Below are positions 57,683 through 60,158 of a stretch of 64,000 nt of DNA, piece by piece; the first letter of the stretch is position 1, and each line of letters starts with the position of its first letter. Location of the stretch: assembly GCA_003282865.1 (NCBI GenBank), contig QBYK01000004.1:1-64000 (forward strand), given 5' to 3'. The position numbers were made by a program, and so were the translations under genes. This DNA comes from SAR116 cluster bacterium AG-325-I21 (lineage in GTDB: Bacteria; Pseudomonadota; Alphaproteobacteria; Puniceispirillales; Puniceispirillaceae). The notes beneath the pieces were generated by a model. The model made no database searches. It was not told where the DNA came from and was given only the letters and a program-made list of their open reading frames with translations.

Positions 57683-58168
57683 CTATTTTTTCGTCATTGT
57701 CTTTTTTGCTGCTGGCTTTTTTGCTGCTGCCTTTGGTTCTGCCTTTTTTGTCACTGACCGCTTTGCTGAGGTTGCGTCTTTAGCTGCCTTCGTTGGTGCT
57801 GCAGCCCTCTTCGGTGATTTCTTAGCAGCGGGTTTTGTTGTTTTTAGGCTCTTCGCGTCTTCAGCAATTTCGTTAATTTTTAGCAGAGTAAGGTCTTGTC
57901 TGTGCCCCTGGGTGCGGCGATGGTTTTTCCGGCGCTTGCGTCGGAAGATAATAACTTTTGGCCCGCGTGTCTGGCGCATTACTGTAGCTCTGACGCCGGC
58001 TCCATCAACACGCGGTGTGCCGATTGTAACCTTGTCCCCATCGCCAAGCATGACAATGTCGCTCAAAATAATTTGTTCGCCCTCTTCTGCAGACAGCCTT
58101 TCAACCAGAATGGTATCATCCTTAGAAACACGGTATTGTTTGCCACCGGTCTTCACCAAAGCATACAT
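57683..58168 (-). CDS. rplU: 50S ribosomal protein L21 with basic C-terminal tail
   Basis: L21 core (MYALVKTGGKQYRVSKDD, VTIGTPRVDGAGVRATV, KVIIFRRKRRKNHRRTQGHRQDLTLLKI) in the first 100 residues, then a Lys/Ala-rich tail of about 57 residues ending AAKKPAAKKTMTKK. Total is 161 residues against roughly 103 in E. coli. It binds 23S rRNA domain I near L20. AAGGA precedes ATG 58168; the frame is open to 58231 but those residues are not L21-like. Confidence 0.97.
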   Translation of the reverse strand: MYALVKTGGKQYRVSKDDTILVERLSAEEGEQIILSDIVMLGDGDKVTIGTPRVDGAGVRATVMRQTRGPKVIIFRRKRRKNHRRTQGHRQDLTLLKINEIAEDAKSLKTTKPAAKKSPKRAAAPTKAAKDATSAKRSVTKKAEPKAAAKKPAAKKTMTKK

Positions 58169-58555
58169 GGCAATTTTCCTTATCAAAACAGTTAGACGCC
58201 GAGAGGGTCTGGCCAAGCCGGGAACGCTCAAATCATCATAGTCATCACACTAGCTATGGTCAGGGTTACTGACCATTCACTTGTTGGCCAAACAAGGCTT
58301 ACTATACTAGGCCGATGTTTTAAACCGCTATAATGGTTCGGAATATACGCTTTGAGGTAATGCTGTCAAGTGTCCCGAAACTTTTATTCTGTTTTTACAT
58401 CATGGCCTTAAGCCTTTTTAGTAATGCCACTTTTACTGTCTGAGCGTTGTTTTACCTGGGCCTTGTCCTCGCCGCTGGATTAACATTGCTGGCCCGAGGG
58501 CTGTCTGGTTGCATCTCAATGGCTCATCAAAGCCTGAGCCATGTGTTACTCTGCC
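58169..58555. other. rplU leader and intergenic region, no gene seen
   Basis: About 390 bp without a credible gene. The rplU promoter and leader must lie here on the minus strand. A second small hairpin (GGCTCA ... TGAGCC, 58521-58540) without a T-run is present near the right end. A plus-strand frame starting at 58447 runs antisense to the split gene described next and has no family resemblance. Confidence 0.5.
58258..58274 (-). promoter_or_regulatory. Perfect hairpin in the rplU leader
   Basis: GGTCAG-GGTTA-CTGACC is a perfect 6-bp stem with a 5-nt loop (plus-strand reading), 90 bp upstream of the rplU ATG. If transcribed it would sit in the mRNA leader. L21 autoregulatory leaders are known in other bacteria, but this one matches no structure I can name. 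Confidence 0.3.
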
Positions 58556-58973
58556 TTATCTTAAGAAGTAATGACGGAACATATCATAGTTTTTCCTTAT
58601 CAACTGGTCTATCCAGCCCCACCCTAAGACTTCGTATTGTTGGCCGGTGGATATGTACATTTTCACAGCAAAAAGCTTGCCGCTTAGGAAATCGTATACT
58701 GTTCGGTCTAATGTCAAGCCATTTCCAGACCACTGGAAACGCCCTACATCGGTGAATCGGGGTGATTCTAAAATTCTGATGTATGTGCCCGGTGTCAGAA
58801 AGGTTTCGATCAAATAGACTTAAGTTATCAGATGGTGGGTAAGCGCATTCGCCACCATATTGAATAGGGTTCTTCATCAAAACTGGCGGTATTAATGTTA
58901 CCAAAAACACAAATGCCGCAGGTGGTTTCAAAGTTTTAAATTTTCCTTTGTTCTTATAAACTCTGGGTGGCAT
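58556..58973 (-). pseudogene. Putative exported small protein, apparently split by a frameshift
   Basis: Two overlapping minus-strand frames look like one gene. The first part, from ATG 58973, begins KNKGKFKTLKPPAAFVFLVTL, a basic-hydrophobic signal-peptide-like start, and runs to about YPPSDNLSLF (near 58815). After that this frame turns rich in Arg, His and Cys and loses coding character. In the frame offset by one base, coding character resumes with IETFLTPGTYIRILESPRF and continues with GRFQWSGNGLTLDRTVYDF and YEVLGWGWIDQL to a stop at 58556. Joining them gives an approximately 138-residue secreted or membrane-anchored protein. The shift lies near a TTT within CTATTTGATC. I do not recognise a family. 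Real decay, a sequencing indel, or two unrelated frames are the alternatives. Confidence 0.45.
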
Positions 58974-59156
58974 TTGTCTGGATTCTCCGTTGAAAAATTT
59001 CTATGGCTGATGAGCGCATGCGAGAAAAAACTACAAATACCCTCTATTTCATATGGGCTGGGTTCAGGTGTCTAGAAAGTTATGCCTGTTATGATTATGC
59101 TGGAGCTTTTAACAGGGCTTTGGTCCTCGGTTTGAGTTTTAAGGAATGGAGTTTAT

Positions 59157-60158
59157 GTGGTAATGGTGCAGATCAAGCAGGTAAATATTCCAGCTGCGGA
59201 CGCAATTGGGCTAAGTGATGTTGTGGAAATTTATCAGGCCTTGCGACCATCTATGCCCGTAGGAAGAATGGGGCAGGCTAAGCCAGCGTCAAGGCTAATC
59301 GATCTTCTTGATGAGTTTGACGGGTTGGTCCTCGACGGTTATGGAGTTATCAATGTAGGTGATGGTCAAATTGATGGTATTGCCGCCCTTCTAGATGCCG
59401 CTGCCAGCAGAGATAAACCGGTGCTTGTTTTAACCAATGGCGGCAGTTTTTCAGCAGAACACACATGGGAAAAATATCGGGATTGGCAACTACCCATTGC
59501 GCGTGATGATGTCATATCAAGCCGGGATGCGTTTGTTTTAGAAACTGGCAAGCGTCAAACCGAGGTAATGAATGTAACCAAAATTGGCTGTTTTGGGCGC
59601 AACATCGAGGCACTTAATGGTGATAATATTCTAGCCTATGGCCGTGACGATGATTTCTGGCAGCAGGCAGATGAATTTGTGTTTCTTGGTGCGCTTGATT
59701 GGCAGGAGGACGATCAAGCTGCTTTTGAAGTCGCGATGATCACTTATCCGCGGCGCCTTCACATTGCGAATCCTGACGTAACAGCCCCACAGGCTGACGG
59801 CAGTTTTTCGAGTGAGCCTGGATATTGGACGGCAAGAATGATGCAGGCGGCCGCTAATCAGGGGGTAGAAGTTGATGTTAGATGGTATGGCAAGCCCTTT
59901 AGTCCGGCTTTTAATTTGGCATTGGTGCGAATGCAAACAAGGCTTGGTAACCTCTACAGTCGTACGCTCGATCAACCTTTTGATGCGTCTCGCATTGCTA
60001 TGGTTGGTGATAGTTTACACACTGATATTTTGGGTGGTGCCGCCGTTGGCATGGCAACAGTTTTGATTACTGATCATGGGTTGTTTCGGGGGCAGGATGC
60101 ATTGCCCATCTGTATTTCCTGCGGATTACTTCCTGACTGGATAGTTAAAACCCTTTAG
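59157..60158 (+). CDS. HAD-superfamily class IIA hydrolase (NagD-like)
   Basis: A 333-residue HAD hydrolase with a IIA cap. Motif I reads LVLDGYGVINVGDGQ (nucleophile Asp at about residue 59; the +2 position is Tyr rather than Asp), motif II VLTNGGS, motif III lysine in WYGKPFSPAF, motif IV MVGDSLHTDILGGAAVGMATVLI. This set resembles the alphaproteobacterial subfamily with an aromatic +2 residue (DVWG type). Substrate unknown; sugar or nucleotide phosphates are typical of relatives. GTG 59157 has GGAG 5 bases upstream; ATG 59163 is the alternative. folB follows after 16 bp. Confidence 0.82.
   Translation: MVMVQIKQVNIPAADAIGLSDVVEIYQALRPSMPVGRMGQAKPASRLIDLLDEFDGLVLDGYGVINVGDGQIDGIAALLDAAASRDKPVLVLTNGGSFSAEHTWEKYRDWQLPIARDDVISSRDAFVLETGKRQTEVMNVTKIGCFGRNIEALNGDNILAYGRDDDFWQQADEFVFLGALDWQEDDQAAFEVAMITYPRRLHIANPDVTAPQADGSFSSEPGYWTARMMQAAANQGVEVDVRWYGKPFSPAFNLALVRMQTRLGNLYSRTLDQPFDASRIAMVGDSLHTDILGGAAVGMATVLITDHGLFRGQDALPICISCGLLPDWIVKTL

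Follow-up and report, generated by a model that had tools for sequence, protein, structure and literature searches.

The closest described systems for the feature analysed here are the mandelate racemase / muconate lactonizing enzyme (MR/MLE) family, part of the enolase superfamily, and the ordinary bacterial pseudogene. Streamlining in SAR116 is the topic of PMC8547437, in whose main text the words 'racemase' and 'enolase' do not occur, and a literature search for SAR116 together with mandelate racemase found no paper linking the two. In the window (the whole 64,000-nucleotide stretch of SAR116 cluster bacterium AG-325-I21 that was analysed), one segment is homologous to part of the N-terminal third of an MR/MLE protein that is intact in a relative, the genome G007. 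Unlike members of the family, however, the window copy is broken and has no recognisable C-terminal domain. It resembles the ordinary bacterial pseudogene in its frame changes, stops, truncation, weak codon-position pattern and absence from sister genomes, and differs from such gene relics in no notable way. We estimate a probability of about 0.95 that what remains here is the 5' portion, now in decay, of a gene of the MR/MLE family once situated between rplU and a HAD-like gene. On this reading the feature is a pseudogene relic of an ordinary kind, from a known enzyme family, and the result of ordinary gene loss.

The locus and its intact gene in relatives

The original prediction concerned two open reading frames (ORFs), both lying in a 994-bp spacer with an rplU-like gene on one side and a HAD-like gene on the other. 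The features of the locus are the following:

57683..58162, minus strand: rplU-like gene (ribosomal protein L21), the left neighbour, matched in 58 of 61 genomes
58506..59034, minus strand: 529-bp segment, absent as a block from the closest two relatives in the genome set (G014 and G006) in the L071 and L072 alignments
58556-58813, minus strand: 85-aa ORF with a TTG start, the second half of the predicted gene
58584-58973, minus strand: 129-aa ORF with an ATG start, the signal-peptide half of the predicted gene
58673..58940, minus strand: degraded copy of roughly codons 25-121 of an MR/MLE-family gene, from tblastn, a frameshift-tolerant profile and DNA alignment
59157..60158, plus strand: HAD-like hydrolase gene, the right neighbour, matched in 56 of 61 genomes

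We take the left neighbour to be rplU because of its sequence and the genes around it, and the right neighbour is presumably a HAD hydrolase gene. An Rfam search over 58100-59200 gave no match at E up to 1, no tRNA gene was found in the 20 stretches fetched from relatives, and promoter and terminator patterns occur in the spacer about as often as by chance (3 against a mean of 2.6, and 1 against 1.3). A sigma-70-like site on the minus strand (58342-58369, 11 of 12 matches) lies upstream of rplU and outside the relic; it is possibly the rplU promoter, though such sites are no commoner than in shuffles.

The DNA between or beside the rplU-like and HAD-like genes was fetched from 20 relatives, as spacers or contig ends. 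A stop-free full-length MR/MLE gene stands at the locus on the rplU strand in 15 of them (14 genes of 406 codons and one of 403), a partial gene in two (G003, cut by contig ends, and G011, truncated) and a broken copy in one (G010); the gene is absent from this place in the other two, G014 and G006. The HAD-like gene of G015 and G003 is on another contig than rplU, so that the full arrangement is not visible there. The G007 protein matches both Pfam MR_MLE_N (PF02746) and MR_MLE_C (PF13378) above cut-off, and the solved chains 4e5t, 4e4u, 3rcy, 3t4w and 4j3z at E 1.6e-133 or better. Its match to the NCBIfam galactonate dehydratase, at 236.8 bits, is below the cut-off of 311, and for this reason no substrate is assigned to the intact gene. 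In a wider collection of genome contigs, at least 567 stretches encode an MR/MLE relative, the best 80 of which were kept. Across the taxonomic family, 37 of the 61 genomes gave a match at E 1e-40 or better; the other 24, which gave none, include the window's genome, G014, G006 and G010, and elsewhere in the window's genome (79.7% complete) the MR/MLE matches have 26-33% identity only.

In G007, a DM13-domain gene stands beside the MR/MLE gene in divergent orientation (L073 330-833). The Pfam test for DM13 covered L073, and similar ORFs were recognised by eye at L077 308-811, L085 1884-2384 and L083 290-898. When eight genomes were searched, the DM13-domain gene turned up in three (G003, G004 and G007), whereas the window's genome, G014, G006, G010 and G011 gave no match. 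The two genes may belong together functionally.

Homology and lesions of the relic

Searching by tblastn with the G007 protein returned two collinear pieces in two frames, 58929-58717 and 58732-58673, at E 4e-6 (with the window and 20 loci as the database, and no filter or composition correction). As DNA, the segment matched G003 best (66% over 212 bp, E 2.9e-6 for that genome). A genus-wide DNA search matched it in five of 15 other genomes at E 0.01 or better; the remaining 10 gave no match, including six with an intact gene (G004, G015, G009, G001, G002 and G012). We also used a frameshift-tolerant profile, built from 14 of the 15 intact proteins (omitting the 403-residue one of L088). The window segment scored 122.2 against this profile, a value reached by none of 600 controls: 300 pieces of the window had a mean of 31.7 (sd 4.5, maximum 46.9) and 300 dinucleotide shuffles a mean of 29.3 (sd 4.2, maximum 51.8). 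The other strand scored 28.4, the reversed profile 34.6, the G014 and G006 stretches at most 35.5 and the adjoining parts of the spacer at most 34.2, while the broken stretch of G010, taken as positive control, scored 358.6. In the traceback, which runs from codon 25 to codon 121, the segment and the G007 protein share 46 of 91 aligned residues. The homology of 58673-58940 to the MR/MLE gene is beyond chance, and the relic has the position and strand of the relatives' intact gene, beside rplU and on the rplU strand. We considered whether a mobile element had brought the segment in, and rejected this because the homologous gene of the relatives is at the same place and on the same strand.

Identity between the relic and six intact copies is low, at 55-58% of aligned DNA columns, so that the places of its lesions are approximate and short pieces, for example 58829-58796, could be aligned otherwise. 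Neither 58506-58672 nor codons 1-24 aligned clearly with the MR/MLE gene; the former, at the 3' end of what is retained, may have eroded further or may have a different origin. An exact 13-base direct repeat has one copy in this poorly aligned part (58591-58603, with an ATG after it on the minus strand) and the other just upstream of the rplU start (58174-58186); it may be due to chance.

The reading frame of the relic is disabled. Its traceback contains six frame changes between codons 29 and 106 (near codons 29, 48, 62-75 and 99-106) and two in-frame stops, both within the 58794-58720 piece. At four of the six places, near codons 28, 48, 69 and 100, the DNA alignment shows length differences that are no multiple of three; the relic carries a minimum of four frame changes, besides its two in-frame stops, where the original prediction had a single one-base frameshift. 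The switch point that it had placed near 58810 does correspond to a real frame change in the homology alignment, which passes there from 58829-58809 to 58810-58796, and is one among several. A functional MR/MLE enzyme would have one open frame with both N- and C-terminal domains; the window retains about codons 25-121 in several frames and with stops, and whatever else the gene contained is gone or can no longer be recognised.

The frame change near 58810 is also what programmed ribosomal frameshifting near the T-run at 58805-58820, one of the explanations first offered, would predict. However, six aligned relatives have one continuous frame across the homologous site, where their sequence is unlike the window's, and in the window the additional frame changes and stops would require recoding as well. 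Programmed slippage is thus extremely improbable. Equally little credence can be given to an assembly or sequencing error, which had been proposed too: the genome is a draft of 122 contigs with an estimated completeness of 79.7%, and single-base errors are possible, but it would take several independent errors, and the loss of the DM13 gene and most of the MR/MLE gene as well, to produce this locus; two relatives align with the flanks, and 42-45% of aligned columns (misalignment included) differ between the copy and six intact ones.

These differences were also sorted by codon position, over 113 codons within MR codons 14-136, using columns with a base in the window copy and six intact genes. 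Positions 1, 2 and 3 account for 0.32-0.35, 0.25-0.26 and 0.39-0.43 of the differences between the window copy and the intact copies, and the third-position share among the intact copies themselves is 0.58-1.00 (15 pairs). Such shares fit a gene now free of protein-level selection, with the caveat that misalignment would flatten the signal likewise.

Two open reading frames over a dead gene

The two ORFs exist in different frames of the minus strand, as originally described, and do not form the halves of one small exported protein. Their overlap, thought to be a few bases, amounts to 230, since the 129-aa ORF stays open to 58584. When the 994-bp spacer was shuffled 2000 times with dinucleotides preserved, counting both strands, an ORF of at least 85 aa appeared in 33.8% of the shuffles, one of at least 129 aa in 3.3% and two of at least 85 aa in 5.4%. 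With ORFs this long occurring at such frequencies, ORF length by itself is weak evidence and carries little weight.

A genuine small exported-protein gene with one recent frameshift would explain two overlapping ORFs and the hydrophobic stretch near the N-terminus of the 129-aa ORF (judged by eye). However, protein searches with the two ORFs singly found no homologue at E 0.001 or better beyond the window's own genome. Among 61 genomes, the 85-aa ORF matched its own genome alone, and in the wider contig collection, where the search reaches close relatives only, 27 stretches matched a pattern and none was confirmed. For the N-terminal 55 aa of the 129-aa ORF, the best match in any other genome had E 0.157, and neither ORF matched a Pfam family at E up to 1. 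This lack of a homologue of either frame across the collections searched (60 relatives, the contig collection and Pfam) speaks against the original prediction, as does the homology of the same DNA to the MR/MLE gene in other frames, and we consider an exported-protein gene very unlikely.

The profile traceback places both ORFs relative to the dead MR/MLE gene. The 129-aa ORF is a +1 shadow frame of that gene over 58926-58870 and 58794-58720, two of the best-aligned pieces, where the ancestral frame is used by neither ORF; it is in the ancestral frame at two short pieces only (58940-58926 and 58829-58809). The 85-aa ORF follows the ancestral frame over 58810-58796 and 58720-58673, and a shadow frame in between. 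Joining the two frames, as had been proposed, does not restore the ancestral coding frame in the best-aligned pieces, and because the ancestral frame is mostly not that of the ORFs, protein searches with the ORFs find nothing. Compared by BLASTP with the ORF in the +1 shadow frame of G007's intact gene, the 129-aa ORF had 25 of 84 residues identical at E 7e-7, in a single comparison whose partner ORF was picked by eye. Over the first 150 codons of the 15 intact genes, the +1 shadow frame has a longest open run of 59-109 codons, depending on the gene. We infer that both ORFs are stretches open by chance, partly inherited from the shadow frames of the MR/MLE gene, and are not in use. It seems to us a very slim prospect that the shadow-frame 129-aa ORF instead yields a small membrane or exported protein, new and specific to the lineage, as a gene born by overprinting on a pseudogene. 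Recognising the relic removes a false lead, and comparing the DNA of the same spacer across relatives solves a case that ORF protein searches cannot.

Loss of the gene among relatives

The stretches L071 and L072, from the closest two relatives, align to 58000-58505 and resume at 59035 (to 59387 and 59359); 10-11 bases separate the two matches, so that these sister genomes lack the 529-bp segment as a block. In a tree of the HAD and rplU proteins from 19 of the 61 genomes (G003 is among those omitted, its HAD match being in pieces), G014 and G006 group with the window's genome with support 100/99, and the four states of the locus need three changes, the least possible. The events may have followed this order: an MR/MLE gene once occupied the spacer between the rplU and HAD-like genes, where relatives still have it; with selection gone, a lack that we infer as the cause, small insertions, deletions and stops would have piled up in it; the greater part of it would have disappeared, along with the DM13-domain gene next to it; and the sister lineage of G014 and G006 would have lost what was left. 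Recent decay was among the explanations first offered. Decay is supported, that of a larger and known MR/MLE gene and not of an exported protein of about 138 aa, whereas 'recent' is doubtful: the divergence of the window copy (42-45%) suggests, as far as sequence comparison goes, that its decay is not recent.

The same locus is damaged elsewhere in the genus. G010 has a broken copy (L079 591-1130), which may be an independent loss. G011 has a 5'-truncated copy of which the 3' half alone is left (L078 305-919); it groups with G013 (support 89/90), whose gene is intact, and its truncation is therefore probably a separate loss event. Within one genus, this single locus records the stages of a loss: intact, truncated, relic and gone.
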